A stretch of 64,000 nucleotides of DNA from positions 1,674,001-1,738,000 of the forward strand of contig LN554846.1 in NCBI GenBank assembly GCA_000953695.1. Reading direction: 5' to 3'. Source of the stretch: Aliivibrio wodanis (lineage in GTDB: Bacteria; Pseudomonadota; Gammaproteobacteria; Enterobacterales; Vibrionaceae). This document shows positions 10,903 to 25,890 of this stretch, in pieces. Each line of letters begins with the position of its first letter. Within the stretch, counting starts at the first letter, position 1. The notes beneath the pieces were generated by a model. It was not told the DNA's origin, searched no databases, and saw only the letters and a list, made by a program, of their open reading frames with translations. Both the position numbers and the translations under genes were made by a program.

Positions 10903-10987
10903 GCTTTAGCTCAAGGTTGTTTAATTACCCTAAGTGTGACATCGAAAAAGGATCGTTCAAGTCCAATTTGATGATCATTATCAGCGA

Positions 10988-11332
10988 TCACACTTCTAGG
11001 TTAAATAACGGCTTATGAGCTTTAGCATGATCTAAAGTCAGTCCAGATAAAAGCCAGTTGAGTTGTTGTCTGCTAATGTGGAGCGCACCATCAATATTGG
11101 GAGTTGGCCATTTGAACGTCCCTTTTTCTAAGCGACGATAATAAAGCCAAAAACCATTGGTATCCCAAAACAAGATCTTGAGTTTATCTCGATTGCGGTT
11201 ACAAAAAATAAACCAGGCTTCACTGAATGGGTCCATTTCCAGCGTTTCGGCGACAATGAGTGATAAGCCATCAATGGATTTTCTCATGTCGGTGACGCCA
11301 ACGACGAGGTAAACCTTTCCTGACTGTATCAT
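10988..11332 (-). CDS. tnpB: IS66 accessory protein TnpB (copy A)
   Basis: 114 residues of the IS66 Orf2 type, recognised by VYLVVGVTDMRKSIDGLSLIV and the WFIFCNRNRDKLKILFWDTNGFWLYYRRLEKG core. It is required with TnpA for transposition, role unknown in detail. It overlaps tnpA by 4 bp (ATGA), so the two are probably translated together. Confidence 0.95.
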   Translation of the reverse strand: MIQSGKVYLVVGVTDMRKSIDGLSLIVAETLEMDPFSEAWFIFCNRNRDKLKILFWDTNGFWLYYRRLEKGTFKWPTPNIDGALHISRQQLNWLLSGLTLDHAKAHKPLFNLEV

Positions 11333-11628
11333 TGCAATGCATCAACCCAATGTTTTATTTGTTTGGAATTAAGGTTTGCTGGTAACTCGGCACGAAGGCC
11401 ATTATTACATGTCAGCACCACAATATTTGACGGCTCTTGTGTTGGCTCTGTCACGATAATGGGGTGAATTTTTGTTGTGACTTCTGACTCGCTGAGCTTC
11501 TTTGACCAGTAATAAAGGGTTTGGTAGCTTATTTCATTATCAATACAAAATTGCTTGATAGATAGGTTACTCTCTTTCTGCTGCTCTAAAATATTAGCCC
11601 AATGGTCGCGCTTACTTTGTTGATTCAT
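11329..11628 (-). CDS. tnpA: IS66 accessory protein TnpA (copy A)
   Basis: About 99 residues with an N-terminal helix-turn-helix (HWANILEQQKESNLSIKQFC ... SYQTLYYWSKKL). The start at 11628 follows a strong ribosome binding site GGAGG with 5-6 bp spacing; the 12 extra codons upstream lie in the left IS end. First gene of the tnpABC operon. Confidence 0.93.
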   Translation of the reverse strand: MNQQSKRDHWANILEQQKESNLSIKQFCIDNEISYQTLYYWSKKLSESEVTTKIHPIIVTEPTQEPSNIVVLTCNNGLRAELPANLNSKQIKHWVDALQ

Positions 11629-11701
11629 AATACCTCCGATTAAAAAGATACTATGGCAAAGCATGCTTAATATTGATATGTGTGGTTAGTTAAGCGCTTA
11701 C

Positions 11702-11837: not shown

Positions 11838-12737
11838 TCAAGGCCAATGCTTAGATTTAAAGCTCAGTACATCTGCATGAATATCGTTTATTACACAAAC
11901 ATGACTAAGATCTCTATCTTTTAATAAATTAGGTAAATCTACATGCTCAGAAAAAATTTCTTTTATTTCTTCTTGTGTAATTAAAGGATTTAACGCAACT
12001 TTAATCCCTCTCAACTTAGAAACATAATTACTAACAATCCCTTTACTTTTAAAAAGCGACGATTCAAAATTATGCCCTCTATAGTATAGGTGCAAATTAT
12101 CACTATCCAAACCTTTACTATTTAAATGTTGTTTTTCAGCAAGTGAGATAGTATTTATATTTGTACATTTCTTTATATTATTCAGATCAATAGATTCACT
12201 AATCTTTGCTATTTTAGTTTGACAGCGATCATTAATTAGTAAATAACAAAAATAATCACAATACTCCCTAGACCATTCCAATATTTTATCCTGAACTACA
12301 TTTATTGTACTATTTTCTACAACACCGATATGTTTTTGAATTTCAGTAGTCATATGTTCAGGATGATAATAAATATTTTCGATTGCATATGCATATGTTT
12401 GAAAAACATAATCTGAATTATAATAGTTTTGGTTTTTATTCACAAAATTATCATAATCACTATCTAAACAAACAATCAAACGCTTAGATAAAGTAAAGCG
12501 ACCAGACTTTATACCAGAAATAATTGCGTCCTTCCCATTTGCAGGTTGGTGCTGACTTATATCTCTAAATTCAATGCCATTTAATTCATGAAATCCAAAA
12601 CGATCTCGCCAAAAGTCAATATCAACCGGAGCTTCTACATATGCAATAATTAATGGAGGAGTAACTCCAAAATTTTCATCAGCATCTTCTAATTCATCAT
12701 CTAAATCAAAATCAGGTATTGTATATTCAACTTCCAT
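11838..12737 (-). CDS. DUF4435 / TOPRIM-like effector (PARIS AriB-like)
   Basis: 299 residues. Marks of the DUF4435 family: YVEAPVDIDFWRDRF (acidic residue E35), the DxD-type strand LIVCLDSDYD (residues 87-96) and YAIENIYYHPEH. These recall a TOPRIM nuclease fold. In PARIS the DUF4435 protein AriB is held by the ATPase AriA and released as a tRNA-cutting toxin when a phage anti-restriction protein is sensed. Here it starts 1 bp after the ATPase stop (TGATATG), so the pair is surely co-expressed. The DNA is strikingly A/T rich beside the phage genes, a sign of separate acquisition. Function is inferred from family and pairing. Confidence 0.7.
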   Translation of the reverse strand: MEVEYTIPDFDLDDELEDADENFGVTPPLIIAYVEAPVDIDFWRDRFGFHELNGIEFRDISQHQPANGKDAIISGIKSGRFTLSKRLIVCLDSDYDNFVNKNQNYYNSDYVFQTYAYAIENIYYHPEHMTTEIQKHIGVVENSTINVVQDKILEWSREYCDYFCYLLINDRCQTKIAKISESIDLNNIKKCTNINTISLAEKQHLNSKGLDSDNLHLYYRGHNFESSLFKSKGIVSNYVSKLRGIKVALNPLITQEEIKEIFSEHVDLPNLLKDRDLSHVCVINDIHADVLSFKSKHWP

Positions 12738-12738
12738 A

Positions 12739-13914
12739 TCAAGATCTTACTTCTACACAATGAGCAAGCCAACCATGTTTAATCAAGCTAGGAGAATGTG
12801 TCGCAACTATAAATTGATGTTCTGGAGCTAACTCAGACAAATCTTTTATCAAGTTTTTTTGCCATTTAACATGCAATGCAATTTCAGGTTCATCGAAAAT
12901 AAATATTGAAACTTTTTCTTTATATAAAAAAGTAACTACAAATAAATATATTAATGTTTTTTCCCCTCGAGATAATAATTCCCAAGGTATATTACCATCG
13001 CTATCTTTGTATTTTAAATTTAATTTCCTATCTTTATCTAAATCATTATCTCTACTAAAAGTAACAACTTTATTTAAAGGTGAGAAATATTCATTTATTT
13101 TTTCAATATATAAAGAAAGATCTATATTCCTAGTTTTAGATTTCTCAAATTCATCAAACGTAGCTTGTTTATCATTTTCTATTTCTTGAAAACCTAATTC
13201 TTCATTAGTTTGAGAAAGAAATGAAATTACTGTATCACGATGTTCACCTTGCCAATGGCTTAATTTATCTCTTACATATAAGAATCGTTCATCAATACTA
13301 CTTTTATATGAGTCCCATACTTTTCCAGTACGAGAAGAAGAATTCTGACCATGAAGATTTAACCTATCATCTTGATATAAAAAACTAAAAGGTTGATCAT
13401 ATAGCGTCACTGACGGATCACTACCAAAGCTAATATCAGGATTACCAATTCTTAATACATACTCTTTCTCCTGATGAGATGAGTCATCATCGTTAAAATA
13501 AGATATATGCTTAGGAACTTTAGATTCTTCTAATTTAAAAAGATCTTCAATTTTACTTAAAAGTTTAAAGTGCTTTTTTATATCACCAGAACCAATTTCA
13601 CCATCAAAGGCATCATTGACTTTTTTTTGTAAATTACTTGTTGGTATTTGAGGTAATAGTATTGTATCTACTCTAATATCTTCAAAAAACTCATTTAAAG
13701 TATCCATATGTAAATGAGCTACAGATGACCAAAATCGATATTTAGAAGTTGACGGTTTGGAAGATCCAAAATTAAGGGTATCGTAAATCAGGTTACATAA
13801 GGAACTTTTACCTGAGCCATTTGGACCTGTAATAAAAGTTACTCGATGTTTAAATGTTAACGAAATTTGTTCTTTTCCCCACCAATTTGAAATTTCAATT
13901 TTTGATATTTGCAT
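12739..13914 (-). CDS. ABC/SMC-type AAA ATPase (PARIS AriA-like)
   Basis: 391 residues with a complete ABC-ATPase set: Walker A GPNGSGKSS (30-38), signature LLSRGEKTL, Walker B IFIFDEPEIALH, and H-loop VATHSPSL near the C-terminus. The short insertion between them fits AAA15/21-type defence ATPases rather than a long-arm SMC. The start at 13914 follows GAGG with proper spacing; 12 codons further upstream are open but lack a site. It is first in a two-gene cassette with the DUF4435 gene and sits between Q and the lysis genes, where lambdoid phages carry morons. Confidence 0.75.
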   Translation of the reverse strand: MQISKIEISNWWGKEQISLTFKHRVTFITGPNGSGKSSLCNLIYDTLNFGSSKPSTSKYRFWSSVAHLHMDTLNEFFEDIRVDTILLPQIPTSNLQKKVNDAFDGEIGSGDIKKHFKLLSKIEDLFKLEESKVPKHISYFNDDDSSHQEKEYVLRIGNPDISFGSDPSVTLYDQPFSFLYQDDRLNLHGQNSSSRTGKVWDSYKSSIDERFLYVRDKLSHWQGEHRDTVISFLSQTNEELGFQEIENDKQATFDEFEKSKTRNIDLSLYIEKINEYFSPLNKVVTFSRDNDLDKDRKLNLKYKDSDGNIPWELLSRGEKTLIYLFVVTFLYKEKVSIFIFDEPEIALHVKWQKNLIKDLSELAPEHQFIVATHSPSLIKHGWLAHCVEVRS

Positions 13915-13938
13915 TTCATACCTCAAAAACATAGCGTC

Positions 13939-13966
13939 TACATAATTCAATTTCTATCTATGTAAA
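13939..13966 (-). promoter_or_regulatory. Candidate promoter of the ATPase/DUF4435 cassette
   Basis: Reading leftwards, TTTACA (13961-13966) and TATGTA (13939-13944) are separated by 16 bp and lie 25 bp upstream of the ATPase ATG. The surrounding 13915-14173 gap is very A/T rich and could also hold the late promoter expected next to Q. Confidence 0.4.
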
Positions 13967-14173: not shown

Positions 14174-14773
14174 TTATAGCACTAAATACGCTAATGCTGC
14201 CGTTCTCTCATCTTCGGCAATCGTTCCTTGCACCGACAGCGCCGCTGCATTCCTCTTATCAGAAAGCCAATCTACCAAGGCTTTGATAACTGGCATGTAG
14301 CGGCGAAAGCGTGAATACGTAATCCTCAAAGTTAAACAAAAGTATGCAAAACGGGTTTCTTGAGTCCATTGAATACGGCCATCATCGCAACATGGGCATT
14401 TACGTGTCACGCGGTTCTTGGCCTTCACCTTTCCTGAGCCATTACACTCTGGGCAGATTTGGCCTAATGGTTGTGTTGCCTCTGCTATCGCTGTGATGCA
14501 CATAGCATTGAGCGCTTTGTCTGGATAGGTTCCACGCCATGTTTTCATGATCTCATTGGCTTCAATCATTGTGGCTTTAAATAACTGCTTTGCTGATTGT
14601 GCATCATTCAAACATTCTACAAACAACACCAAGAACCCTACTGGTGATTGCTTCCATGCTATCCCTACAGTGGCGAGATACTCTTCTAATGTCATTAACG
14701 CTTTGCCGCCTTTTGATGGCTCGTAGTTAATCCCTTTTAAATCAAACTTTGCGATTACACGTTCAATATTCAT
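14174..14773 (-). CDS. Phage antitermination protein Q-like
   Basis: 199 residues with a DnaJ-like zinc-finger CPECNGSGKV ... KCPCCDDGRI (about 109-137) inside a helical protein, the hallmark of the Q antiterminators of the phage 82 type. Q loads on RNA polymerase at the late promoter and lets it pass terminators, switching on lysis and structural genes. It is the last gene of the leftward early operon, ATGA-coupled to the gene before it, and the lysis and head genes follow downstream, as expected. Confidence 0.75.
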   Translation of the reverse strand: MNIERVIAKFDLKGINYEPSKGGKALMTLEEYLATVGIAWKQSPVGFLVLFVECLNDAQSAKQLFKATMIEANEIMKTWRGTYPDKALNAMCITAIAEATQPLGQICPECNGSGKVKAKNRVTRKCPCCDDGRIQWTQETRFAYFCLTLRITYSRFRRYMPVIKALVDWLSDKRNAAALSVQGTIAEDERTAALAYLVL

Positions 14774-14964
14774 TTGTTACTCTCATCCACAATAAGCACT
14801 CTTGTTTTACCAGTACCAACAAGAGCAAAACGGTTTGCGATGGTGATCACCTCACCTTTGATATGTTTAGCAGCTTCTGCAATCGCTTGGTCCCAATCAG
14901 CGCTTAATGCTAATGGTTCCATGTTGACAGCTTGACCACCTGCGTCGTAAAAAATCCCTTTCAT
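14770..14964 (-). CDS. Small phage protein, unknown function
   Basis: 64 residues starting MKGIFYDAGGQAVNMEPLAL. The start at 14964 was chosen because its ATG overlaps the helicase-loader TGA as ATGA, and its own TGA overlaps the Q-like ATG in the same way; a longer frame to 15021 exists. I recognise no domain. Tight coupling to replication and Q genes suggests a small early protein. Confidence 0.65.
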   Translation of the reverse strand: MKGIFYDAGGQAVNMEPLALSADWDQAIAEAAKHIKGEVITIANRFALVGTGKTRVLIVDESNK

Positions 14965-15689
14965 GACACCGCCTGTAATTTCTTGTTCTTTCTGAAGCTC
15001 GGCCATGAGAACGTTACCCACTCGCCGTTATTTTCTAGCAAACGTTCAATTACTCGCGGCCCAAGAACTTGAGTTAAGTTCTCAGTGGTAAGATTGGTTA
15101 AAATTCCGGTAGGTTTTTCATTGGTGTATCGAGAGTTTATGATCATATTAATCATAAGAGTTTCATGATCACTCATGCGCTGAATCCCAACTTCGTCGAG
15201 AATTAGCACATCTAAATTGCTGAGGTATTTTATGAATTGTTCTTCGGTAGTTCGTGAGTTTGAATTGTATTTATCACGGATATTGAGCATGAGGTCGGCG
15301 ATAGTAATCACCAGTACTGAAGTTTTGCGTGCCATCAAACGGTTTGCAATGGCGCATGCCAAATGGTTTTTACCTGTGCCTGGCGTGCCAGAGAAAACAA
15401 AACTGCCTGTTGCGCCCTTGCGGTAATTCACTAGCCAGTTTTTGGCTTGGTTGTACGCTTGGCGTTGGCCTTGATTCTCAGTGATGTAATTTTCAAAACT
15501 ACACTTCAAATGACGTTTCTTGATACCACTGCGACCAAGGACTGATTGCAATTGGCTTGCTTGATGATTATCACGAGCTCTGTTTGATGCAGCTTGCTCG
15601 CACTCCTTCGCAATTTGTGCCATACGCTCTGGTGTGTGAGGAATAATATGCGATGGTATTTTACTTTGCAATCGATTTAGTAAATTCAT
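14961..15689 (-). CDS. DnaC-like replicative helicase loader
   Basis: 242 residues. AAA+ ATPase with Walker A GTPGTGKNHL (101-110, the same GKNHL variant as E. coli DnaC), Walker B VLILDEVGIQ, a sensor segment ILTNLT, and an arginine-finger region PRVIERLLENNGEWVTFSW. It would deliver host DnaB helicase to the phage origin together with the O-like protein encoded just upstream. It is second in the replication pair, 2 bp from the preceding gene fragment. Confidence 0.85.
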   Translation of the reverse strand: MNLLNRLQSKIPSHIIPHTPERMAQIAKECEQAASNRARDNHQASQLQSVLGRSGIKKRHLKCSFENYITENQGQRQAYNQAKNWLVNYRKGATGSFVFSGTPGTGKNHLACAIANRLMARKTSVLVITIADLMLNIRDKYNSNSRTTEEQFIKYLSNLDVLILDEVGIQRMSDHETLMINMIINSRYTNEKPTGILTNLTTENLTQVLGPRVIERLLENNGEWVTFSWPSFRKNKKLQAVS

Positions 15690-15691
15690 GA

Positions 15692-16012
15692 TTAAAATCC
15701 TTTTGGCGCTTCAAATTGTGAGCTGTCTAGCCCTTCAGAGTATTCCACGATATCGTTGATGCGGTTTGAGTTACGGACTCCGCCTTTGAGTTCAAACAAC
15801 CCTTGCCATTCGTTGTCGATGGATTGATCGATAATTCGTTGCTGTAATTTTTTATCGTTGCGAGATAATTCAAGCAGCTTGGTGATGCAAGTTAACTCAC
15901 CACGTTGAGTTTTGTATTTTTTCTTGATGGTTGCTCGATACTCAAGCCATTGCTGCCAAGCAACCAGATTTAGTTCTTCAGGAAGCTCAATGTTTTCAAT
16001 TTTTTGAACCAA
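15692..16012 (-). pseudogene. C-terminal part of split O-like replication protein
   Basis: 106 codons from a TTG, carrying IELPEELNLVAWQQWLEYR and further helices of the kind found at the C-terminus of phage replication initiators that bind helicase or its loader. There is no good start of its own. It overlaps the preceding frame by 43 bp, and adding one base in the A7 run at 16012-16018 fuses the two into one protein. Either the gene is broken by a 1-base loss, or a -1 ribosomal shift joins the parts. Confidence 0.6.
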
Positions 16013-16413
16013 TTTTTTTGTTTATTTTTTATAGGTTCTAATTGACTGGTTCTATGACTGGTTCTGGGTGACACAGTGTCACTAGGGGGGTGACTCTGTG
16101 TCACCACCCCTGGTGATCGTGTGTCACTAGGTAGTGCCAATTTGTCACCATCTAAATGAAGGTAATATATGTTGCTAGAATTACCCTTTTCACCCTTACG
16201 ATAAGTAAAAGTAAGCAATCCAGATTCAGTTAATGCTTTGATGTGACGCATGGCTGAACGACGTGATATTTCACACATTTCAGCAATGTGATCATACGAT
16301 GGCCAGCACTTACCGTTATCGTTCGCGTTATCGGCCAATTTAAGTAAAACAAGCTTACGAGTAGGATTACCCACTTTTATGCTCATGGCCTTTGCCATTA
16401 AGATCATACTCAT
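15970..16413 (-). CDS. N-terminal part of O-like replication protein (winged helix)
   Basis: 147 residues. The first 85 are a helix-turn-helix / winged helix (RKLVLLKLADNANDNGKCWP, YDHIAEMCEISRRSAMRHIKAL, GLLTFTYRKG) typical of phage replication initiators. A proline/serine-rich linker follows, and then an off-frame tail of about 12 residues after the A7 run. The start overlaps the stop of a 43-aa frame as ATGA. It should bind the phage origin; without its C-terminus it may not recruit the helicase. Confidence 0.65.
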   Translation of the reverse strand: MSMILMAKAMSIKVGNPTRKLVLLKLADNANDNGKCWPSYDHIAEMCEISRRSAMRHIKALTESGLLTFTYRKGEKGNSSNIYYLHLDGDKLALPSDTRSPGVVTQSHPPSDTVSPRTSHRTSQLEPIKNKQKNWFKKLKTLSFLKN

Positions 16414-16541
16414 TGATTAGCCCTTTGCTTCATTTGATTAAAAATGCCTTGCGCCACTTGTCTTGTGACAATGCAACGCATGAAACGGTTACTTGCTACC
16501 CACTGCATTTGGCCGTGGATGTTTTGATATGAAAGACTCAT
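16410..16541 (-). CDS. 43-aa protein with repeated MSLS leader start
   Basis: A short frame starting MSLSYQNIHGQMQWV and ending ATGA-coupled to the replication gene. Its start codon lies in a 19-20 bp motif (TTTGTGCAATGAGTCTTTC on the minus strand, 16532-16550) that also precedes two rightward early genes at 18581 and 19340. Function unknown; coupling and the repeated leader support translation. Confidence 0.5.
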   Translation of the reverse strand: MSLSYQNIHGQMQWVASNRFMRCIVTRQVAQGIFNQMKQRANQ

Positions 16542-16550
16542 TGCACAAAG
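16531..16550 (-). repeat. Leader repeat, copy 1 (TTTGTGCAATGAGTCTTTC)
   Basis: First of three copies of a motif that contains an ATG and encodes MSLS. On this strand it opens the 43-aa frame. Confidence 0.8.
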
Positions 16551-16553
16551 TCC

Positions 16554-17099
16554 TTATTTCTTATTAGAAATTAAAGTTTCTAGATAATTTAAAATTGGCT
16601 CGTGAGCGCCCTCGCTTTCTTGAACTTCTTTAAAAGCGGCGCGTAGCTGGTCAATGCTTGCGTTTTCGCTTAACAGAAGTACAGAACGAAGTGCCTCACC
16701 CGATTCTTTACTAAATTGCGCCAAGAGTTGATCTCGGCTTACTTGAGTTTGATTTGCTCCAATGGCAGCAACAGAGAACCCAAGTGGATTTAAAAATTGG
16801 TTTAATGCAGTACACGCCCTATCCACTGGCATGACGCTGATAATGGCTGGCAATAAATCCATAATGGTTGCTTTGGCTTCAACACTGCTTCGTTCGTTGT
16901 AGCGAAAGAAGTTTTGAGTGTTGTTCTTGTCATCCGCACCAGGAACTTTCAGCAGCTCTTTACGTTGTGCATCGACTTCTTGCGGTAAGCCCATTTTGAA
17001 ATATGCACTTGCGACTTTCTGAGCAATAAACTCTTTGCTTACTTCGCATCGCCACCCTTCTATGGCGTTACGCATAACGCCTTTTAAACTGGTTATCAT
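16554..17099 (-). CDS. YdaT-like / CII-type phage regulator
   Basis: 181 residues. The pattern VASAYFKMGL ... NTQNFFRYNE ... EAKATIMDLLPAIISVMP matches the YdaT family of Rac-type prophages, which act as CII-like lysogeny regulators and are toxic when overproduced. It is second after the Cro-like gene on the leftward early transcript, exactly the place of CII. The C-terminal third is helical and has no motif I know. Confidence 0.6.
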   Translation of the reverse strand: MITSLKGVMRNAIEGWRCEVSKEFIAQKVASAYFKMGLPQEVDAQRKELLKVPGADDKNNTQNFFRYNERSSVEAKATIMDLLPAIISVMPVDRACTALNQFLNPLGFSVAAIGANQTQVSRDQLLAQFSKESGEALRSVLLLSENASIDQLRAAFKEVQESEGAHEPILNYLETLISNKK

Positions 17100-17151
17100 G
17101 GTTTGTCCTTAGTACTGGTTATTTATCCAGAGTGTTATGGTTCACCTGTTT

Positions 17152-17382
17152 TTATTCTTTTTCCGTATGATTAATATTCATCGGGTTTGGGAATACATCT
17201 GTAAATTGGCAGTTCGCCCCAAGTTCATTCAATGCAGTAACGATTCGCCAACAAGTGTTTATGTCAGGGAAACGACGACCTTTTTCAAAATGACTGATTG
17301 CAGAAGCTGAGATACCAAGTTTTGTCGCTAAATTTGCTTGAGTTAATAGAGCACCTCCCCTGATTTCTTTAATCTTTGACAT
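17152..17382 (-). CDS. Cro-like helix-turn-helix regulator
   Basis: 76 residues with an XRE-type helix-turn-helix (LTQANLATKLGISASAISHF EKGRRFPD region). The start at 17382 follows AGAGG with good spacing; 17 more codons upstream lie in the operator. It is divergent from the S24 repressor and first on the leftward early transcript, so it takes the role of Cro/YdaS. Confidence 0.8.
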   Translation of the reverse strand: MSKIKEIRGGALLTQANLATKLGISASAISHFEKGRRFPDINTCWRIVTALNELGANCQFTDVFPNPMNINHTEKE

Positions 17383-17418
17383 ATAAGTACCTCTTGTATG
17401 TACGCGACGAACTACAAT

Positions 17419-17489
17419 ATACATAACGTACATATAAATATCAACAAAATGTACATAGTGTTTCTTGAATGGTTTATTACATTTTGTAT
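17419..17489. promoter_or_regulatory. Immunity operators: three AC-N5-GT half-palindromes
   Basis: Three sites share an AC-N5-GT core with A/T-rich flanks: ACATAACGT (17421-17429), ACATAGTGT (17453-17461) and ACATTTTGT (17479-17487). They fill the 116-bp divergent space between the Cro-like gene and the S24 repressor. A three-site operator at this place is the expected layout for CI/Cro competition. Confidence 0.65.
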
Positions 17490-17498
17490 AGTTGAGTT

Positions 17499-18155
17499 AT
17501 GAAAATGAATTGGACTGAAATGGTGAAAGCTCGCCTAAAGGAGCTATCAGTAACTCAAGAAGCATTGGCTGAAAAAATCGGAGTTACCCCTGGAGGTTTG
17601 GGTCATTGGTTAAATGGACGACGTGACCCTAGTCTTGAAATCATAGCTAAGATTCTTAAAGAATTGAGGCTAGATAAGTTGATCCTAAATTCTGATGGTT
17701 CTCTTGAGTACCCATCTCTTGAAAATACAACACCATCACCAGAACTAGCGTATAAGAATAGCTTTCCAGTGATCAGTGCTGTACAAGCAGGAGCATGGAC
17801 AGAGGCTTGTGAACCCTACTCTTTAAATGAGGTAGATGAGTTCCTATTCACCACAGAGAAGGCGAATGAGCATTCTTTTTGGCTGAAAGTTAAAGGTGAT
17901 TCGATGACATCAAACTCATCGCCAAGCTTTCCTGAAGGAACTGCCGTTTTAGTCGACCCATGTATAGAACCGGAAAGTGGTAAATTAGTTATTGCCAAAT
18001 TATCTGATGTGAATGAAGCGACATTTAAACGCTTAATCATTGATGCTGGGCAAAAATACCTTAAACCACTAAACCCTGATTACCCAATGCTTCCGATAAA
18101 TGGAAACTGTAAGATCATTGGTGTCGTTATAGACGCCAAAATGAAACTGTTTTAA
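17499..18155 (+). CDS. CI-like prophage repressor with S24 self-cleavage domain
   Basis: 218 residues. An XRE helix-turn-helix (about 14-52), a linker, then a LexA/CI-type peptidase: cleavage site A97-G98 (VQAG), catalytic Ser135 in KGDSMTS and Lys177 in EATFKRL. RecA-stimulated self-cleavage would inactivate it in the SOS response and induce the prophage. It is divergent from the Cro-like gene and followed by a clear terminator. Confidence 0.9.
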   Translation: MKMNWTEMVKARLKELSVTQEALAEKIGVTPGGLGHWLNGRRDPSLEIIAKILKELRLDKLILNSDGSLEYPSLENTTPSPELAYKNSFPVISAVQAGAWTEACEPYSLNEVDEFLFTTEKANEHSFWLKVKGDSMTSNSSPSFPEGTAVLVDPCIEPESGKLVIAKLSDVNEATFKRLIIDAGQKYLKPLNPDYPMLPINGNCKIIGVVIDAKMKLF

Positions 18156-18173
18156 ACAACATCCATTTCTAAT

Positions 18174-18198
18174 TAACCGCCCTAGTGGCGGTTTTTTT
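18174..18198 (+). terminator. Terminator of the repressor gene
   Basis: AACCGCC-CTAGT-GGCGGTT followed by a seven-T run, 19 bp after the repressor stop. Confidence 0.9.
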
Positions 18199-18240
18199 AT
18201 GCCTAAATTTTAGTCTCTAGCTCTCCAAAAGAAAATAAAT

Positions 18241-18280
18241 ATACATTTTGTATTTACAACGATATATACGTTATGTATAT
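18241..18280. promoter_or_regulatory. Two further repressor-type operators
   Basis: ATACATTTTGTAT (18241-18253) and ATATACGTTATGTATAT (18264-18280) carry the same AC-N5-GT core as the immunity operators, 25 bp apart, and are better palindromes. They lie just upstream of the rightward early gene at 18313, so that operon is probably under the same repressor. Confidence 0.65.
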
Positions 18281-18312
18281 TTAAATCATCAAATGAGTAC
18301 AGAGGACTAAAT

Positions 18313-18570
18313 ATGAAAACACTTTCGTTAAGCCATTTATCAAAACTTGCCTCTACGGCTGAGCAAGTTCGCCAGAGTATTACTTTAGGCAATATTGCTG
18401 TAAGCCAGACGGCACAAAACCACCCTATCCGCGATGAGTTTAAGGCTTTTGAAGTTGAGGCAAAGTCGCTGTTGGAGACATTCACAGCAGAAGTAAGCGA
18501 TGAGCTGATCTCAAAAATTGAGAAGCTGCAAATCACCGCTGAGAATATTAATAGCAGATTGAGTTATTGA
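18313..18570 (+). CDS. Early prophage protein, unknown function
   Basis: 85 residues, all predicted helix, acidic C-terminal half (SDELISKIEKLQITAENINSRL). No domain recognised. It is the first gene of the rightward early operon behind two repressor-type operators, so it would be among the first proteins made on induction, where other lambdoids encode N or Kil-type functions. Confidence 0.6.
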   Translation: MKTLSLSHLSKLASTAEQVRQSITLGNIAVSQTAQNHPIRDEFKAFEVEAKSLLETFTAEVSDELISKIEKLQITAENINSRLSY

Positions 18571-18579
18571 ATTGAAAAG

Positions 18580-18619
18580 CTTTGTGCAATGAGCCTTTCA
18601 CCAATTTGGGCTGACCACC
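18580..18619 (+). repeat. Leader repeat, copy 2, with GGCTGACCACC
   Basis: TTTGTGCAATGAGCCTTTC (18581-18599) followed after 9 bp by GGCTGACCACC (18609-18619). Both blocks recur together at 19340-19391. Confidence 0.8.
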
Positions 18620-18636
18620 CACAGGAGATGTTATGA
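18589..18636 (+). CDS. 15-aa leader peptide coupled to the next gene
   Basis: ATG within the leader repeat opens MSLSPIWADHPQEML and stops at a TGA that overlaps the ATG of the 18633 gene. A very short frame ending exactly on a start codon suggests translational coupling or attenuation. Confidence 0.4.
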   Translation: MSLSPIWADHPQEML

Positions 18637-18941
18637 GTAATGAACTAAACGGATTCTTTACCCTAATTATGAGTGATTTGGATGATAGAGAACGTATGTG
18701 GGAGCGCTACTTGAAGCAACGCCCACATGAACAAGTTTGCTGTCAACATCACTTAGCAACAATTGGCAATATCAAAAGACTCACCTTAAGCCGAGCTAGG
18801 CAGTTTGGTCTTGTGGTGAATGATGATCCAAAAATACTCAAACAAGATGAAGAGTTTGGTGTTGTTGATATTGATGCCCGTAGAAAACAAGTAAAACATA
18901 TTTTTCTATCTCAACATCTTATTTGTTTGGGGGAATACTGA
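18633..18941 (+). CDS. Hypothetical early protein
   Basis: 102 residues, helical and charged (MSDLDDRERMWERYLKQRPHEQ, then a CCQHH cluster). Not recognised. GGAG lies 8 bp before the ATG. Its 3' end overlaps by 23 bp the end of a gene on the other strand. Confidence 0.6.
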   Translation: MSNELNGFFTLIMSDLDDRERMWERYLKQRPHEQVCCQHHLATIGNIKRLTLSRARQFGLVVNDDPKILKQDEEFGVVDIDARRKQVKHIFLSQHLICLGEY

Positions 18942-19194
18942 ATAGCTCGTAATACGGAAGGTATATTGGCTTTGGCCTGGCAAAGATGTTTTCAACAACA
19001 GCAGAGGTGATGAACTCTCCACTAAGGTTCGTTATATCCTCACCACCAAGAGTATGCAGATCGCCAGTAACAAAATCTCTATGCTGGAAGTCTTCACAGT
19101 CCGCAGTGTAGAAAGTGGTAATAGTACAGTCATCTTCCACTAAGACGAAAACTAGATTTTCCCTTAATGAGCGAGCAACGACAATGCCTCTCAT
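18919..19194 (-). CDS. Hypothetical protein, antisense within the early operon
   Basis: 91 residues starting MRGIVVARSLRENLVFVLVEDD, beta-rich, with no domain I recognise. It is transcribed against its neighbours and ends inside the 18633 gene. Its amino-acid make-up looks like a real protein rather than a shadow, and the other strand here is not otherwise coding. It may be an independent cargo gene. Confidence 0.5.
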   Translation of the reverse strand: MRGIVVARSLRENLVFVLVEDDCTITTFYTADCEDFQHRDFVTGDLHTLGGEDITNLSGEFITSAVVENIFARPKPIYLPYYELFSIPPNK

Positions 19195-19338
19195 ATTTTT
19201 ATCCTCTGATTAGTTGGCACTATCAAGGATACCACGACCGAGCGTGGTTAAATATCTCGGACTCTTTTTAAAGCTTTTATTTGTGAGGGCTTTAAAAAGA
19301 AGAAAACCCCTATTAGTGACCAAACCAATAAGGGCTAA

Positions 19339-19391
19339 CTTTGTGCAATGAGTCTTTCAACTCGCAATCAGTATATAACTGGCTGACCACC
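19339..19391 (+). repeat. Leader repeat, copy 3, with short frame MSLSTRNQYITG
   Basis: TTTGTGCAATGAGTCTTTC (19340-19358) and GGCTGACCACC (19381-19391). The ATG at 19348 opens a 12-codon frame ending at 19386, 58 bp before the next gene, which itself begins MSLLTYQN. Confidence 0.75.
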
Positions 19392-19443
19392 AATTACAAG
19401 CACTTATGCTGATTGCTGGGTTTCACCCAAAAGGAAATGTGTA

Positions 19444-19683
19444 ATGAGTCTATTAACTTATCAAAACAGCCAAGAAGCGTTTATTGGCAAGCATATACAT
19501 GCCGCTTTACAGACTGACGGCTATGAAACGTCTGATATTAACCGAGGCATTCAAGAAGCTCTCCGTTTCTATCGTACCACTTGTACTTTCACCAAAGGCC
19601 GAGTGTTTGATTCATGTTTAGCAAAAGCTCGCAATCTTCTTAAGCCAATTAAGAAGCCAACAAAGAAAGGTAAAGCAGCATGA
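19444..19683 (+). CDS. Hypothetical early protein
   Basis: 79 residues with a basic tail (KPIKKPTKKGKAA). It starts MSLLTYQNSQEAF, similar to the 43-aa protein's MSLSYQNIHGQ, which suggests a shared origin of the 5' part. AAGGAAA precedes the ATG. It overlaps the next gene by 4 bp. Confidence 0.6.
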   Translation: MSLLTYQNSQEAFIGKHIHAALQTDGYETSDINRGIQEALRFYRTTCTFTKGRVFDSCLAKARNLLKPIKKPTKKGKAA

Positions 19684-20351
19684 ATCCGCGTCATTTAGAA
19701 AAAATCAAAAAGTGTTTTGAGCTTGGTAAATCAGGTAACCCAAACGAAGCTGCAACCGCTTTGGCAATGGCTCATAAATTAATGCGTAAATATGGTCTTT
19801 CTGAAGATGATATTGACTTTATTGAAATGGGAGCCACCACCACTGCTTCTAAGATCCAGAAAAAGCCAGTTGCTTACGCTGTAAATCTTGGGACAAGTAT
19901 CGCCAGCTCGTTTAAGTGTGAGGTGCTTCTTCAGTATTCGTATCATGGAAATAATTTTAAATTCATCGGTAGAAAAGACACGGCCATGATGTCTGCTTAT
20001 GCATTTGATGTGCTTTTTCGTCAATTGAAACTGGCTCGTAAAGCGTTCTTGGCTACTGTCCACACTCGCACTTCTAAACAGAATAAAACAAAGCGAGCAG
20101 ATTGTTATTGTGACGGCTGGGTAAATTCTGTTGTACGTAACTTAGATGTTGAAGAGTTACCACCAGAAGAGAAAGAACGCATTACAAATTATCGTAAACA
20201 CATTGGTTCATACACAGAGAAAAAGGCTAAATCAAGACAGCGCAAAGGCGGTTCTATCTCTGATTACCTTACAGGTTCTCATGATGGTAAGAACGTTCGC
20301 GTAAACACGCCAATACATGGTTCAGAAGGTGAACGACTATGCCTTCAATAG
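19680..20351 (+). CDS. DUF2786-domain phage protein
   Basis: 223 residues. The N-terminus (LEKIKKCFELGKSGNPNEAA, TALAMAHKLMRKYGLSEDDID) is the DUF2786 domain, found in many phage and plasmid early regions; the middle, with HTRTSKQNKTKRADCYCDGW, is typical of its companion domain. Molecular role unknown. It is coupled to its upstream neighbour (ATGA) and overlaps the next gene by 13 bp. Confidence 0.75.
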   Translation: MNPRHLEKIKKCFELGKSGNPNEAATALAMAHKLMRKYGLSEDDIDFIEMGATTTASKIQKKPVAYAVNLGTSIASSFKCEVLLQYSYHGNNFKFIGRKDTAMMSAYAFDVLFRQLKLARKAFLATVHTRTSKQNKTKRADCYCDGWVNSVVRNLDVEELPPEEKERITNYRKHIGSYTEKKAKSRQRKGGSISDYLTGSHDGKNVRVNTPIHGSEGERLCLQ

Positions 20352-20722
20352 ACAAAATCAAAGAGCAGAATCGTAAACGCGCTCAAAAGTTACGTAACAA
20401 CAAAAAGAAACACGGTGTGATTGATCTTCGCGTGCCTTTGCACTCTGTTGAGCAAAACAAGTTAAGCAAGATTTGTGAGTTCTTCGCCTTTCCTGATAAA
20501 GCGTATAGCAGTGAAGAAGCTCTCCAATCGTTAATTCATCGGGTTTATTCCGAGATACCAAAGATTGAAGATGATCTTGGTATGTGTGAAATGTGTGGTG
20601 AGCAATTGCCACAAGGTTGCGCCAAGTTGAAAGAAGGCGGCCTTTTTAAAGGCGATAGCAACTGTTTCCATACAATTAACCGTGTACGAATATTTGAACC
20701 AAGCAAGGAGGCTTCACAATGA
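20339..20722 (+). CDS. Hypothetical protein with CxxC pair
   Basis: 127 residues: a very basic N-terminus (KEQNRKRAQKLRNNKKKHG), then a helical part and MCEMCGEQLPQGC ... DSNCFHT, which could bind zinc. Likely a nucleic-acid-binding early protein; not recognised as a family. Overlaps neighbours at both ends. Confidence 0.6.
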   Translation: MPSIDKIKEQNRKRAQKLRNNKKKHGVIDLRVPLHSVEQNKLSKICEFFAFPDKAYSSEEALQSLIHRVYSEIPKIEDDLGMCEMCGEQLPQGCAKLKEGGLFKGDSNCFHTINRVRIFEPSKEASQ

Positions 20723-20793
20723 GCTTAGCAATTTATGGCATTGGCTGTTTGATTTTTTATGCCTTTTACACATGGAACCACCACTCAAAATAA
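20719..20793 (+). CDS. 24-aa membrane peptide
   Basis: ATG overlaps the preceding TGA (ATGA) and follows AAGGAGG at 20704-20710. The peptide MSLAIYGIGCLIFYAFYTW plus a short polar tail is one hydrophobic helix. The strong ribosome binding site makes translation likely; role unknown. Confidence 0.55.
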   Translation: MSLAIYGIGCLIFYAFYTWNHHSK

Positions 20794-20839
20794 ACCTATT
20801 GTTTTAAAAACTACTTAGATTAAAAATAAGGACTGATTT

Positions 20840-21031
20840 ATGACAACTCAAACTGAAGTTAAAAAGACACCGTTGTACATTACTGATGCTGAAGTAATGG
20901 AAACTTTAGATATTAGCCAGCCTACTCTATGGCGTTGGACAAAGAAAAGAGATTTTCCAAAGCCTGTAATGCGTGGCCGCCGTTCGTACAAAGCATTTAT
21001 GGAATGGATGGTAGGGAAAGGTTTGGTTTAA
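20840..21031 (+). CDS. AlpA-family excisionase / regulator
   Basis: 63 residues with the MerR-like helix-turn-helix of AlpA (YITDAEVMETLDISQPTLWRW, then DFPKPVMRGRRSYKAF). Such proteins act as excisionase or activate integrase. It ends the rightward early operon, on the integrase side of the prophage, which fits an Xis role. Confidence 0.75.
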   Translation: MTTQTEVKKTPLYITDAEVMETLDISQPTLWRWTKKRDFPKPVMRGRRSYKAFMEWMVGKGLV

Positions 21032-21035
21032 AATT

Positions 21036-21069
21036 AAAAATAAGGAGCGAATAAAAGCTCCTTATTTTT
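21036..21069. terminator. Bidirectional terminator between AlpA and the membrane gene
   Basis: Perfect stem AAAAATAAGGAGC / GCTCCTTATTTTT with an 8-nt loop. It closes the rightward early operon and the leftward membrane/NA37-like cassette. Confidence 0.9.
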
Positions 21070-21077
21070 CTATAAAA

Positions 21078-22301
21078 TCAACCAGATAATGGACATCCCG
21101 AGCCCTGACTATTTAAATAAAAACACACCATATATATTAGCCAAACTAAAGAAGACATAAAAACACCGAATCGGATATTTTTAAGAAGGGCTATGGCTTT
21201 CGTTCCTCTATCTTTGATCTCATCATAAGTAGAATCAACTAATTTAGAGCTATGTTTTAAATTATAATCATCTGTTGAATTCTCATTTAAACGATACAAA
21301 ACACGTTTAGAACTCTTTATACAATCTCTTATTGCTGATATTTTATGCTCTAAATTTAAAGTAACTAAATACAATGCTAGTACCATAGCTGTAAAAATTA
21401 AAATAGCAGACATAACATTCCAGCTACGTAAAAGACTTGTCCCTAAAATCACTACTGGTATTGATAAAGCTTTAGCCTGATTATCATGAATAATAGCGTT
21501 AATTTTTTCGAAATACTCAATCTTAGAAATCTCTATTGATTGAAAAAATTTATCAAACGAATATTTATTTATATAATACTCATAGCCAGTAATATAATAA
21601 TCATTAAAATCAGTAGGTTCCTTGAGTATGTTTATTATAACACTCTGATTTCGACCTCTTTTAAATGCTTTTAAAAGAGCTGATTTCACTACTAATTTTT
21701 TCTCTACTGCATGAGTTTCATCTTCTCCAAAAGAATAACTTAATGGAAAATCTGAAATATTATCAAATACCTCAAGCACTTTATTGTTTTCAATCAATAA
21801 CTCATGTGTTTTAATTTTCTTATCTGATTCAATTTCTTCAAGAATATAAATTGACAACTTATTATCATTATTACTAAGTGAATAATTTCTTGTCACATCT
21901 TTAAATAATTGAACCCACTGTTGAAGCGCAATAAATTTATTATAGACACCATCGTAATTAAAATTCTTATCCATAATGAAAAATGATGAGTCTTGGGAGC
22001 TTAACTCACCTTTAACCGCCAACTTAAAGTATCGATTAAAAAAAGATTTAAATGTTTCATCTACATTATCTAAATGTAGATATTTAAAACTTAAACGAAC
22101 AATGCTACCTGATTGCTCAGAAACAAATTCAGCTTCCAAATTTGCATTTAATGCTTCTAATTCAGTAAGTAAATGATCTACAGCCGAGCGATCTTCCAGA
22201 ACAAACGTCATTTCTAAATAACGCCCACTAATAGCTGCACCATCTTGAGATAGTGCATTTAATAACTTTAGTTTTTCTAGAATTTCAGTGTGATTATTCA
22301 T
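21078..22301 (-). CDS. Membrane protein of the NA37-linked cassette, unknown function
   Basis: 407 residues. The first 270 are soluble and mixed alpha/beta. Near residues 276-316 come two hydrophobic stretches (LSIPVVILGTSLL and WNVMSAILIFTAMVLALYLV), then a charged cytosolic-type loop and a last membrane helix (about 379-396). No known domain was recognised. It overlaps the NA37-like gene by 8 bp and shares its transcript and terminator. A large sensor-like soluble part joined to a few membrane helices is common among abortive-infection effectors, but this is inference. Confidence 0.65.
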   Translation of the reverse strand: MNNHTEILEKLKLLNALSQDGAAISGRYLEMTFVLEDRSAVDHLLTELEALNANLEAEFVSEQSGSIVRLSFKYLHLDNVDETFKSFFNRYFKLAVKGELSSQDSSFFIMDKNFNYDGVYNKFIALQQWVQLFKDVTRNYSLSNNDNKLSIYILEEIESDKKIKTHELLIENNKVLEVFDNISDFPLSYSFGEDETHAVEKKLVVKSALLKAFKRGRNQSVIINILKEPTDFNDYYITGYEYYINKYSFDKFFQSIEISKIEYFEKINAIIHDNQAKALSIPVVILGTSLLRSWNVMSAILIFTAMVLALYLVTLNLEHKISAIRDCIKSSKRVLYRLNENSTDDYNLKHSSKLVDSTYDEIKDRGTKAIALLKNIRFGVFMSSLVWLIYMVCFYLNSQGSGCPLSG

Positions 22302-23451
22302 CTATAATATTTTTAATTTTTCTCAGTTGTTCAGGATCTGTAATAGTTGCTGTAAACGTTAATTCATTACTTGCATCATCAAATCTAATACCTCGACTAC
22401 TACTATCAGTACTTGAACCTAATGAACTTTTTTCAAGCCTTAATGTAGCAAAACCCACATCCAAACTAACGTATACCAATTCTTTAATTATATTCGATTT
22501 TAGCTCAAATTCATCATTAATTTCATATATTCCTTCATTAGCAAAAACAACAAACTGTCCACGTAATTCTGCATAATCATTAGGAATACATTGGTCAACA
22601 ACAGCACCAACTTGCTCTAATGTAACTAATGTACCTTTCTTTTCTTCTGAAAAGTCATATACTTTCTGTTCAATCACATCTCTTACTGTTCGATTTAAGC
22701 TTGCTTTATGAAGTGAATTAAAATCATGTAATGCTTTTTCCAAATTCTCACAACTTGCCTTATTTGTAACTCCTTTCTCTGCAAACATTGCATCCTTAAA
22801 GTAATCACGAATATCAGCACCACCTCGAATAAACGAGAGAAAGTTATCTATTTCTTCAGTATCAGATGCTTGATGAGCTAAGAACCTAGTCAAATCAATC
22901 TGACAACCCTGGATGAATTGCTTCAAATCGATAACGTCGACTTCTGAAATTTGTAAATCACTCGTAAATTTAAGAGCCCCAGTATTACGAACCATCAGCA
23001 CCACAAATTTATCACCTATGATCTCTAATTCATCTATGGCCACTCTTTCGCTAATCCCATTCTCTCCTATAACTTGAGATTGTTCTTTTAAGAGTTGATA
23101 ATGAATAAAAACAATAACCGCGCCATCTTCTAGTCTTGAGTTTTTTAACTCTCTTTTTAAAGAGTGCTCCGTAAAATTTTGATGGAAAGCTGAAAAAGAG
23201 ATCCCACCATCAACTTCTAAATATTCAGATAAAATTGTTGGAAACGAACGAGGTGCAGCATCAGCCTTAAATGTTGAATACTCCTTACTTCCTGAGTTTA
23301 TTTTTTCATGTACTTTCTGAACAAATTTAATCACATTTTCAGAGTTCGCATCCCATGAACTACCAGGACTTAGATTCCAGTCTCGATCATCATTATTTTC
23401 AGAAGTCGCACCTTTATATGCAATTGCGTTCAAAACTTTAAACATGTTCAA
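22294..23451 (-). CDS. NA37 / YejK-like nucleoid-associated protein
   Basis: 385 residues whose layout follows the 37-kDa nucleoid-associated family (E. coli YejK/NdpA): an early helix VIKFVQKVHEKIN followed by YSTFKAD, the strand AVIVFIHYQLL, a central DLTRFLAH, then the family-like core LSFIRGGADIRDYFKDAMFAEKG and a helical VRDVIEQKVYDFSEE. The resemblance is by pattern and not aligned. YejK binds the nucleoid; here the gene is cargo beside the integrase and first in a two-gene operon with a membrane protein. Confidence 0.6.
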   Translation of the reverse strand: MNMFKVLNAIAYKGATSENNDDRDWNLSPGSSWDANSENVIKFVQKVHEKINSGSKEYSTFKADAAPRSFPTILSEYLEVDGGISFSAFHQNFTEHSLKRELKNSRLEDGAVIVFIHYQLLKEQSQVIGENGISERVAIDELEIIGDKFVVLMVRNTGALKFTSDLQISEVDVIDLKQFIQGCQIDLTRFLAHQASDTEEIDNFLSFIRGGADIRDYFKDAMFAEKGVTNKASCENLEKALHDFNSLHKASLNRTVRDVIEQKVYDFSEEKKGTLVTLEQVGAVVDQCIPNDYAELRGQFVVFANEGIYEINDEFELKSNIIKELVYVSLDVGFATLRLEKSSLGSSTDSSSRGIRFDDASNELTFTATITDPEQLRKIKNIIDE

Positions 23452-23521
23452 TACCTATAAATGATTATTTTTAGGGATATTACAATAACTATAAAGCTTT
23501 TGTTACTAACAACATTGCATT

Positions 23522-24739
23522 CTAAAGAATATTTTTGAAATCTGCTGATTTATCTACTATTTGACACCACTTTTCATAACCTTCTCGCTGCTCTTCAAGA
23601 TAGTTATAATCAAGATAGTGGCTTTGTACGCCTGTATGCACCTTATGGCCTAACATCACCTCGGCTACATGGTATTTAACCCCTATCGACTCCCAAATAT
23701 TACGAGCCGTTCGTCTCATGTCGTGGTTAGTCGTTCTCGGGTAACCCATGCTTTCTATTTTATCTGCTAATGTCCTTCCAAACGCGACAGGAACATTGGC
23801 CGACATTGGTCTATCGTCTTCACTAATTACTGGTGGAAACATGATTTTATGATCTTGCCATATCCCCATTTGAAAACGGATAACCTCTTCAGCCAATTTT
23901 GGGATAGGACGGATAATCTCTCCTCCATTTTTCTTACGAGTCTTATTATTCTCTTCTGGTACTGTCCATATCAACTTATCTAAATCGAAATCACTCTTTT
24001 TCGCTAAACGCAGCTCATTACTACGACAAGCAAAGATCATCATTAAACGTAAAAAGTTACAGTTGCTTTCATGAACATGTATTTCTGAGATGGCATTCCA
24101 AAGCACAGGAACCGCTTCTTCACTTTGTTTGCTTTTTTTAACGCTGCTTTGAACACCTACATCTGTTTTCTTTAGTTCTGAGAGAGCATTGTATTTAATT
24201 AGGCCGTGACGAACCGCAAATGAAAGGACTTGTTTAAATCGTGCCATTAGGTTGGCTGAATGCTTCGGGCTGACACGCTCACGGGCTTTTCTAAACACTG
24301 GCATGTAATCTATCAGCTCTAAGTGCTTTGCTTGATACTCGCCGATATAGGGACGAATATCAGTATCAAACATTTGAATTAATGGTTTCCAACGAAGGAT
24401 GTTATCTTTTGCGTGGTTTTCCAACCAATAATCTATGATCTCATTGATTGTCGTAGGCACATTAGTTTGACTAAGGTTCAACCCAACTCTTGGATCAACC
24501 CCCATCATTACAAGCTCTGCTTTTTTATCTTTCAGAACTATTGCTTCACGCATTTTTAATGCTGGGTACTGACCTAATGTTAATTTAATTGGTTTGCTTC
24601 TAAATAGAACTCGATATATCCAGGTAACTTTACCTTTGGGGCTAACTCGCACACCTAAGCCGTCTCGATGAGTAACTTCAGGTTTACCCTTGTAAGGTTT
24701 ATTTACTGTGGCTCTTAACCACGCATCTGTAATAGCCAT
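23522..24739 (-). CDS. int: Tyrosine-type prophage integrase (P4-like)
   Basis: 405 residues. N-terminal DUF4102-type arm (DGLGVRVSPKGKVTWIYR), SAM-like core-binding domain, then the catalytic set R239 (ACRSNELR), H339 and R342 (NHDMRR), H365 (LGHKV) and nucleophile Y375 (SHYLD). It integrates and, with an AlpA-type factor, excises the prophage. It lies at the right prophage end. Two LexA boxes upstream suggest SOS control. Confidence 0.95.
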   Translation of the reverse strand: MAITDAWLRATVNKPYKGKPEVTHRDGLGVRVSPKGKVTWIYRVLFRSKPIKLTLGQYPALKMREAIVLKDKKAELVMMGVDPRVGLNLSQTNVPTTINEIIDYWLENHAKDNILRWKPLIQMFDTDIRPYIGEYQAKHLELIDYMPVFRKARERVSPKHSANLMARFKQVLSFAVRHGLIKYNALSELKKTDVGVQSSVKKSKQSEEAVPVLWNAISEIHVHESNCNFLRLMMIFACRSNELRLAKKSDFDLDKLIWTVPEENNKTRKKNGGEIIRPIPKLAEEVIRFQMGIWQDHKIMFPPVISEDDRPMSANVPVAFGRTLADKIESMGYPRTTNHDMRRTARNIWESIGVKYHVAEVMLGHKVHTGVQSHYLDYNYLEEQREGYEKWCQIVDKSADFKNIL

Positions 24740-24809
24740 AATTGTTCAATCCCACCAAATCTTTAGTACAAACTTGGTACAAATTGTAGATGAATACAAG
24801 GGATGAAAC

Positions 24810-24911
24810 ATGAAAATGAGATATCAACTGTATATTTATACAGTATTTTCTATTTTTGTTAAGGTACTGTTTTTGAAGAGAATTAGAAATGTAAGGAAAA
24901 ACACTGAATAG
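24810..24911 (+). CDS. Possible 33-aa hydrophobic-basic peptide
   Basis: An ATG with AAGGG 8 bp upstream opens a peptide with a hydrophobic middle (YIYTVFSIFVKVLFL) and a basic tail, like small membrane toxins. The first LexA box lies inside codons 7-12. It may be chance in an A/T-rich gap. Confidence 0.2.
   Translation: MKMRYQLYIYTVFSIFVKVLFLKRIRNVRKNTE
24827..24844. promoter_or_regulatory. LexA (SOS) box 1
   Basis: ACTGTATATTTATACAGT contains CTGT-N8-ACAG and is palindromic except at the centre, very close to the gammaproteobacterial consensus. It is 88 bp upstream of the integrase start. Confidence 0.8.
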
Positions 24912-24916
24912 TTACA

Positions 24917-24934
24917 ACTGTATGTATGCACAGT
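24917..24934. promoter_or_regulatory. LexA (SOS) box 2
   Basis: ACTGTATGTATGCACAGT again fits CTGT-N8-ACAG, 90 bp from the first box. Confidence 0.65.
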
Positions 24935-25079
24935 GTAAAGTTTTATACGAAGCAACACATGCTAAAAATTAATAAGTCTAAATAATAGAACGTTTATATA
25001 TGATGTAAGGATCAATCAACCACACAAAGGTCGGGACACTTACAAGCCGATTATTGTACGATTCTTGAGTGCCTAATGC

Positions 25080-25120
25080 AAAAAAGAATCGAGATCACAA
25101 AAATGATGTCGATTCTTTTA
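25080..25120 (-). terminator. Terminator of the Spo0M-like gene
   Basis: Long hairpin AAAAGAATCGA / TCGATTCTTTT with inner pairing; on the minus strand it ends in a T run. It is 24 bp past the Spo0M-like stop. Confidence 0.85.
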
Positions 25121-25143
25121 TTGTATTTAAAAATAGAAATTAA

Positions 25144-25890
25144 CTACACACGCAAGATTTTTTGTACCGCATGATGAATATCTGCACTTGATGCATTCGT
25201 ATTTAGTGAAAACGACACATATTGATCACCACGATTAAAGCCCATCGAGCGATCCACTTCTGCTAAACAGTGAAGAACTTGCCCATCAAGAATAAATGAC
25301 AACTCTATCTCTTTTTTATTGATGAATCCGTTACTTCTAAATTCAATCTCTTGATAGCCGCCTGAATGAGATTTAAAGTGGCCACCATTAAGGTAGCCCT
25401 TCTCTACATCTGCTTTTACCATACTAAACCCAGCTTGTTCAATTTGATTAATAATTGCTGTAGCGACAGGCATAGGTTTGACGACTAATAGATCACGGTC
25501 TGTTGGGTCTATCGCAAAATCAATATCCAGTACAGTTTCAATCCAAACATCACAATGATTATTTCGCACATTAAGCGCTGTAATTGGAGTTTCATCAGGT
25601 AGGTTAATGGTGAATGGCATTTCCTGTTTCTCCCCCGCTTGAATTACAAAGGGATTTACTGCCTGAGTATGAAATAGAGTTAACGTTTGATAACTGGTGC
25701 CATTATCACTTTCTACTTTCACCTCGGTATTCAGTTTCAAATGAATCGCATCAATTTGCTGTTCAATATCGCCACCTTGGATATGAACAGTCCCTATTAA
25801 CGTGTCACCTTGAGATAACTCTGGGTTTTCTAAAATGGTATCTACCTTTGTGGCACCTATACCTAATGAAGCTTTTAATTTTTTAAACAT
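25144..25890 (-). CDS. Spo0M-like arrestin-fold protein
   Basis: 248 residues of the SpoOM family: start MFKKLKASLGIGATKVDTIL, then two beta-sandwich halves (QGDTLIGTVHIQGGDIEQQID and the EMPFTINLPDETP region), ending in a DIHHAVQKIL helix. In Bacillus Spo0M affects sporulation; in non-sporulating vibrios the role is unknown and may concern cell-envelope or division control. First host gene beside the prophage. Confidence 0.85.
   Translation of the reverse strand: MFKKLKASLGIGATKVDTILENPELSQGDTLIGTVHIQGGDIEQQIDAIHLKLNTEVKVESDNGTSYQTLTLFHTQAVNPFVIQAGEKQEMPFTINLPDETPITALNVRNNHCDVWIETVLDIDFAIDPTDRDLLVVKPMPVATAIINQIEQAGFSMVKADVEKGYLNGGHFKSHSGGYQEIEFRSNGFINKKEIELSFILDGQVLHCLAEVDRSMGFNRGDQYVSFSLNTNASSADIHHAVQKILRV

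Follow-up and report, generated by a model that had tools for sequence, protein, structure and literature searches.

The locus analysed here raises the question of what is encoded by two adjacent genes, A and B, that lie beside the integrase gene of an Aliivibrio wodanis prophage. Gene A (22294..23445, minus strand, positions of the window, i.e., of the whole 64,000-nucleotide stretch analysed) codes for an NA37/YejK-fold protein of 383 aa counted from the ATG at 23445; an alternative TTG start at 23451 extends the ORF to 22294-23451. Gene B (21078..22301, minus strand) codes for a 407-aa protein that has a soluble N-terminal part (residues ~1-270) followed by two or three membrane helices. 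The end of A lies on the start of B, and the two ORFs overlap by 8 bp (22294..22301, minus strand). Our preferred and somewhat probable reading is that A and B each supply one of the two subunits of an anti-phage system of the DS-1 type that the prophage carries, and a defence function of the pair as such is very probable.

The tyrosine integrase gene (23522..24739, minus strand; Phage_integrase, 9.1e-9) is located upstream of A and has the same direction as the pair; a 97% identical copy is present in the genome G039, which carries a sister prophage. On the other side, the slot is bordered by a gene for an AlpA-like HTH regulator (20840..21031, plus strand; Phage_AlpA, 21.6 bits against a cut-off of 21). 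A previous sequence-only reading had described a two-gene cassette between an integrase and an excisionase. The 8-bp overlap and the integrase were confirmed, but the supposed excisionase is this AlpA-like regulator, the gene of which is convergent with the A-B pair. Between B and the AlpA-like gene, a hairpin with A/T-rich flanks (21036..21069) was found, having a fold energy of -17 kcal/mol and a z value of -6.3. It coincides with the limit of the sister-prophage homology at 21040 and is likely to terminate transcription from both directions at the border of the cargo slot. In the region 20700-25200, the terminator scanner reported no terminator, this hairpin included, and the promoter scan gave 10 sites versus 19.8 expected.

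Protein A matched the Pfam family NA37 (PF04245) with 68.6 bits, which is above the gathering score of 24.6, and it has the fold of YejK/NdpA represented by the E. coli structure 9be2. The earlier assignment of the first protein to the NA37/YejK type was thus borne out. At the same time, A did not reach the score of the YejK equivalog model NF001557 (88.8 bits, cut-off 341). A separate ordinary YejK, scoring 394.5 bits to NA37 versus 68 bits for A, is encoded in the same genome. A is therefore an extra, divergent NA37 copy, and the possibility that it is the host's own YejK was rejected. The net charge of A is -22, and eleven YejK-type proteins fall between -19 and -24; since these proteins are equally acidic, the charge is uninformative on DNA binding by A.

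Protein B, in which the sequence-only reading had recognised no domain, indeed passed no Pfam cut-off. When 36 B proteins were compared with Pfam, no family was matched by more than two of them, the best E-value being 0.00055. The PDB sequence search gave best rows at E ~0.8, and no match to B was obtained when phages and plasmids were searched by tblastn. The predicted architecture of B as a membrane protein agreed with the earlier description of a soluble part of about 270 residues and two or three helices. Namely, the Kyte-Doolittle hydropathy analysis indicated two membrane segments at the threshold of 1.6 and three at 1.2, and at the threshold of 1.6 two segments were found in 35 of the 55 B proteins, three in 17, four in 2, and one in 1. 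The AlphaFold2 model of B (pLDDT 77.1, pTM 0.57) shows an alpha/beta part followed by the long helices 230-272, 275-291, 296-341, and 345-400. Searching PDB and BFVD for the fold of B gave no row at E ≤ 0.001, and a further fold search gave weak helical-bundle background matches. The six best Foldseek rows were CorA chains (E 0.03-0.13, prob 0.44-0.85). The alpha/beta part with a long helix entering the membrane in the B model also resembles what we take to be the layout of the CorA/Mrs2 channels. We regard this weak resemblance as a lead and not as a result.

The system had been proposed as undescribed, which did not hold. The NCBIfam models DS1_1 (NF053868) and DS1_2 (NF053869) matched A and B in this order, with 158.1 and 70.7 bits. 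Both models are equivalogs, named "nucleoid-associated anti-phage protein" and "anti-phage protein", and both scores are far below the curated cut-offs of 330 and 315. According to the accessible part of the DefensePredictor paper (2026), 42 of 94 cloned units were protective, and a YejK nucleoid-associated domain was among the newly validated domains, the assays being performed in E. coli (PMC13092281). The follow-up experiments described in that part concern DS-2, 3, 5, 6, 8, 9, and 11, without DS-1, and no mechanism is given there for the YejK-domain system (PMC13092281). Going by the names of the NCBIfam models, the YejK-domain system appears to be DS-1. A literature search on a YejK clamp gave no structure paper by title.

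As in DS-1, a gene for an NA37/YejK-like protein is directly followed in the window by a membrane-protein gene on the same strand. The window pair differs from DS-1 in its sub-cut-off scores, in the 27% (A) and 21% (B) identity to the nearest relatives of its proteins, and in its long branches. As both proteins stay below the curated cut-offs, the test that NCBI itself applies makes the pair a relative of DS-1 rather than a member, and its sequence suggests a deep-branching relative. Meanwhile, an E. coli pair scored above both DS-1 cut-offs (451.4 and 375.2 bits); it is located on a plasmid that carries phage genes and is flanked by genes for a holin and for antitermination. In Klebsiella phage P7641, lysis genes likewise lie close to a related pair, the other neighbour of which is hypothetical; the loci concerned are L177 3652-6044 and L179 3821-6182. 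On the plasmid of E. coli MS 69-1 (L178 5477-6684), the annotation splits the B gene into two overlapping ORFs. The DNA search of E. coli genomes with one DS-1-type pair (L032) gave no match.

The conserved pairing of the two genes elsewhere was confirmed. Matches to the B model were obtained in 15 of the 296 genomes of the same family, in 26 of the 394 of the same order, and in 2 of the 369 of the same class. The window's own genome is among the hits of each sample, and two same-family hits are repeated in the order sample; the matches were above the cut-off in three same-family and three same-order genomes. The B model yielded 39 loci, and the upstream ORF was placed in the alignment A1 for 37 of them, the window's own included. 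Among these upstream ORFs, 35 of 37 matched Pfam NA37 and 36 of 37 matched DS1_1 (E ≤ 0.1). The loci L009 (a B fragment) and L054 (a weak B match) entered neither alignment and have no NA37 neighbour, and L053 entered A1 only; the L054 match (E 1.3e-4) may be due to chance.

In the wider set, an intact NA37 gene was found directly upstream of 70 of the 79 B-type ORFs, with gaps from -59 to +48, when the gene before B was counted as A at a length of at least 300 aa. The remaining B ORFs comprise three at which the end of the locus cuts (L083, L090, and L121), two with a partial A (L035, 168 aa; L062, 204 aa), two with a shortened NA37 ORF (L048, 264 aa; L079, 276 aa), the broken B of L053 (205 aa, NA37 neighbour present), and the 196-aa fragment of L009 without A. 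It should be noted that the count skipped L002, L014, and L019-L030 as copies, and that the window's own pair is present more than once among the 70 (W, L003, and L117), its gap in W being entered as 0 instead of the true value of -8. The 70 pairs reduce to 55 non-identical pairs, so that the family reaches far beyond the two NCBI models. Across these 55 pairs, the distances of A and B co-vary (Mantel r 0.930, a value that none of 2000 permutations reached), and A and B are inherited together. A second NA37 match was found in 14 of the 15 genomes with B versus 11 of the 281 without B; as these 11 genomes also have one, an NA37 duplicate need not mean defence.

Tight spacing and co-inheritance of A and B are also what a toxin-antitoxin-like addiction module would show, in which B would be a membrane toxin held by A and would serve prophage stability first and defence secondarily. 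A membrane toxin with a soluble partner is presumably a common layout of such modules. Both proteins (383 and 407 aa) are large, unlike what we take to be the rule for toxin-antitoxin pairs, and A has at least 300 aa before B in all 70 pairs by the counting criterion itself. We consider this explanation improbable.

In the tree of A, the paired A proteins form one group (support 88, not starred) that is separate from the YejK-type rows. The window A belongs to a 13-row group (support 98) together with eight rows labelled DS-1, six of which are above the B-model cut-off and two near it. The tree of B contains a 13-row group with DS-1 as well (support 90, not starred). The window branches are long in both trees (1.25 in A and 2.45 in B), with a long-branch warning for the A tree.

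These trees bear on the possibility that A and B are phage lysogeny or DNA-metabolism genes, as NA37 may be in phage F116, next to a non-defence membrane neighbour. A matches the PHROGs family phrog_3767 ("nucleoid associated protein", category DNA metabolism), the F116 NA37 lies among exonuclease, SSB, RdgC, and methylase genes and adjoins the paired group as its closest outsider, and the NA37 of a related prophage (L144) is followed by an ORF judged by eye to be Dcm-like. Both the F116 and the L144 proteins are nevertheless outside the paired group, the latter falling among YejK. The sequence-only reading had counted on neither gene matching a phage structural or replication family. PHROGs gave no structural match, and the pair as phage structural genes was rejected on these grounds; the DNA-metabolism match of A formally touches the other half of that expectation, although the paired A group stands apart from YejK in the tree. 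B matched phrog_5023, a family of unknown function, with 1.5e-22. As a side observation, the F116 NA37 (L176 2914-6690) lies near annotated cytosine-methylase genes, and that of L144 (9371-12178, a Vibrionaceae prophage) lies near a cytosine-methylase gene identified by eye, which is perhaps a different use of NA37.

The cargo slots of the sister prophage weigh against the DNA-metabolism explanation as well. The A-B segment occupies cargo slot 1 (21041..23573), outside of which the two prophages align by blastn, with 95% identity on the side ending at 21040 and 94% on the side starting at 23574. In G039, this slot holds a Lamassu system instead of the pair (PADLOC: LmuB 4.3e-167, LmuA 7.4e-71, and LmuC 7.2e-18). 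The cargo slot 2 of the window prophage (11838..13950, minus strand) contains its second defence system, a PARIS-type pair composed of AriA (12739-13950, minus strand; PADLOC 2.7e-34, the best of 137 families, with PtuA-type ATPase models matching too) and AriB (11838-12737, minus strand; PADLOC 8.7e-15). At the PARIS slot, the G039 prophage carries a different A-B pair, which belongs to another branch (L113 4225-6483), and the pair family thus occupies both slots. To the right of slot 2, the prophages share 88-96% identity (74.9% at the repressor) and a common chromosomal flank; to the left, the identity is 72-81% up to 7862 and 93.7% at 8088-9351. The A-B stretch has a low GC content (0.311), like the Lamassu of G039 (0.281) and the PARIS pair (0.289), versus 0.405 in the backbone (14182-21040). 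Taken with the trees, these data make the DNA-metabolism explanation highly improbable. Three ORFs at 9379-11664, beside the PARIS pair, have what is presumably the layout of an IS66-type transposon, and nothing in the aligned stretch of the G039 prophage corresponds to them.

In related prophages, this slot holds known defence systems in place of A-B. The proposed defence role is therefore upheld by context, namely by Lamassu at this slot in the sister prophage and by PARIS and another A-B pair at the second slot. Of the new evidence, this exchange of cargo is the strongest. We conclude that the cassette is, with high probability, anti-phage and that it extends the family published in 2026. 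Sister prophages with differing defence cargo also constitute a natural experiment which, together with the conservation map of B, makes the mechanism testable. The cassette combines a DNA-clamp-like protein with a membrane protein as a swappable prophage module, and its main interest lies in how it works.

As to how the DS-1-type pair might act, we tentatively propose a sensor-to-membrane-effector mechanism, although we hold it with less than even confidence. A would contact DNA or topoisomerase IV, which we take to be the known partner of YejK, and would sense the state into which the DNA is brought when a phage enters or replicates. B would be embedded in the inner membrane, its soluble part facing the cytoplasm. 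Infection would alter A, which would release or trigger B; the helices of B would then disturb the inner membrane, and phage production would be halted before prophage loss. No set of catalytic-type residues is invariant in the alignment of A or in that of B, which leads us to expect binding and gating rather than enzymatic chemistry, weakly so at such divergence. The residues H197, K266, and K277 are among the best conserved in B and leave room for an enzymatic role of this protein.

The main rival of this mechanism is a Kiwa-like tether, in which B would serve solely to anchor A, as a clamp, to the inner membrane and A would seize phage DNA and block its replication or transcription, the cell surviving. 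The YejK-fold partner agrees with such a tether, and so does the conservation of B, which is highest at residues 241-280 leading into the membrane, with P282 invariant in the 36-row alignment A2; the more variable N-terminal part would fit a docking or recognition surface. The soluble domain of about 270 residues and the long C-terminal helices of B exceed the needs of an anchor, and neither A nor B matches a PADLOC model, Kiwa included. We therefore regard the tether as possible, though doubtful.

The PADLOC scan of A and B returned no family at E ≤ 10, most matches above 0.1 being dropped by the HMMER filters, and the KwaA/KwaB models are, as we assume, present in PADLOC. Kiwa membership by sequence was rejected on this basis, in line with the earlier remark that the families here look different from those of Kiwa, and KwaB was absent among the matches listed in the fold searches of A and B. 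Only the logic is alike, since Kiwa, as we understand it, also combines a membrane protein with a DNA-contacting protein. The same applies to RexAB, which we take to be a prophage-borne intracellular sensor with a membrane effector, A and B having no PADLOC match.

A bolder and rather unlikely extension of the sensor-effector proposal is that the paired family is a large, old immune class with DS-1 as one tip, in which a repurposed nucleoid DNA clamp would read the topology of phage DNA and directly gate a membrane channel of CorA topology. If true, the YejK fold would here serve immunity, and DNA would signal to the membrane in a new way that does without nucleotide messengers.

Defence genes were also found around other pairs and in the slots of further relatives. 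Near 14 other pairs, type I RM, CBASS-type, Mokosh, SoFic, and HEC-06 systems were matched at E ≤ 1e-20 among the best 25 of 82 families. This survey covered the pair loci alone and used 87 of 96 neighbour ORFs (the six of L060 and three of L070 being omitted as near-copies), mostly with one matching protein per system. For the slots, 25 further loci were fetched via backbone or integrase genes, with regions from 20 of 40 places, and in 14 of the 25 the backbone gene and a similar integrase lie within 8.5 kb. In L119, slot 1 contains a third A-B pair, and in L091 it contains Lamassu, each recognised by its similarity to proteins of this analysis; PADLOC identified Hachiman HamB there in L152 and a candidate PDC-S19 in L149.

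The PADLOC cargo scan comprised nine relatives with one or two ORFs each, L141, L143, L144, L153, L154, and L155 being outside it, and gave no match in four of the nine and a weak match in L159 (2e-4). In L142, which is not among the 14, no cargo lies between the backbone gene and the integrase. Two other loci outside the 14 carry defence genes, namely a type IIG RM at the same slot in L118 (PADLOC), the contig of which ends within the cargo, and Gabija GajA/GajB in L145 (3269-6983), a related prophage in which these genes lie beyond an unrelated integrase. In L146, no PADLOC match was obtained beyond an integrase of the same kind as that of L145. The cargo of L147, L150, and L157 in this defence-rich slot, scanned at one or two ORFs per locus, had no PADLOC match; its large proteins (L147 8167-9816, 549 aa; L150 10924-12534, 536 aa; L157 10472-11851, 459 aa) are candidates for new defence systems.
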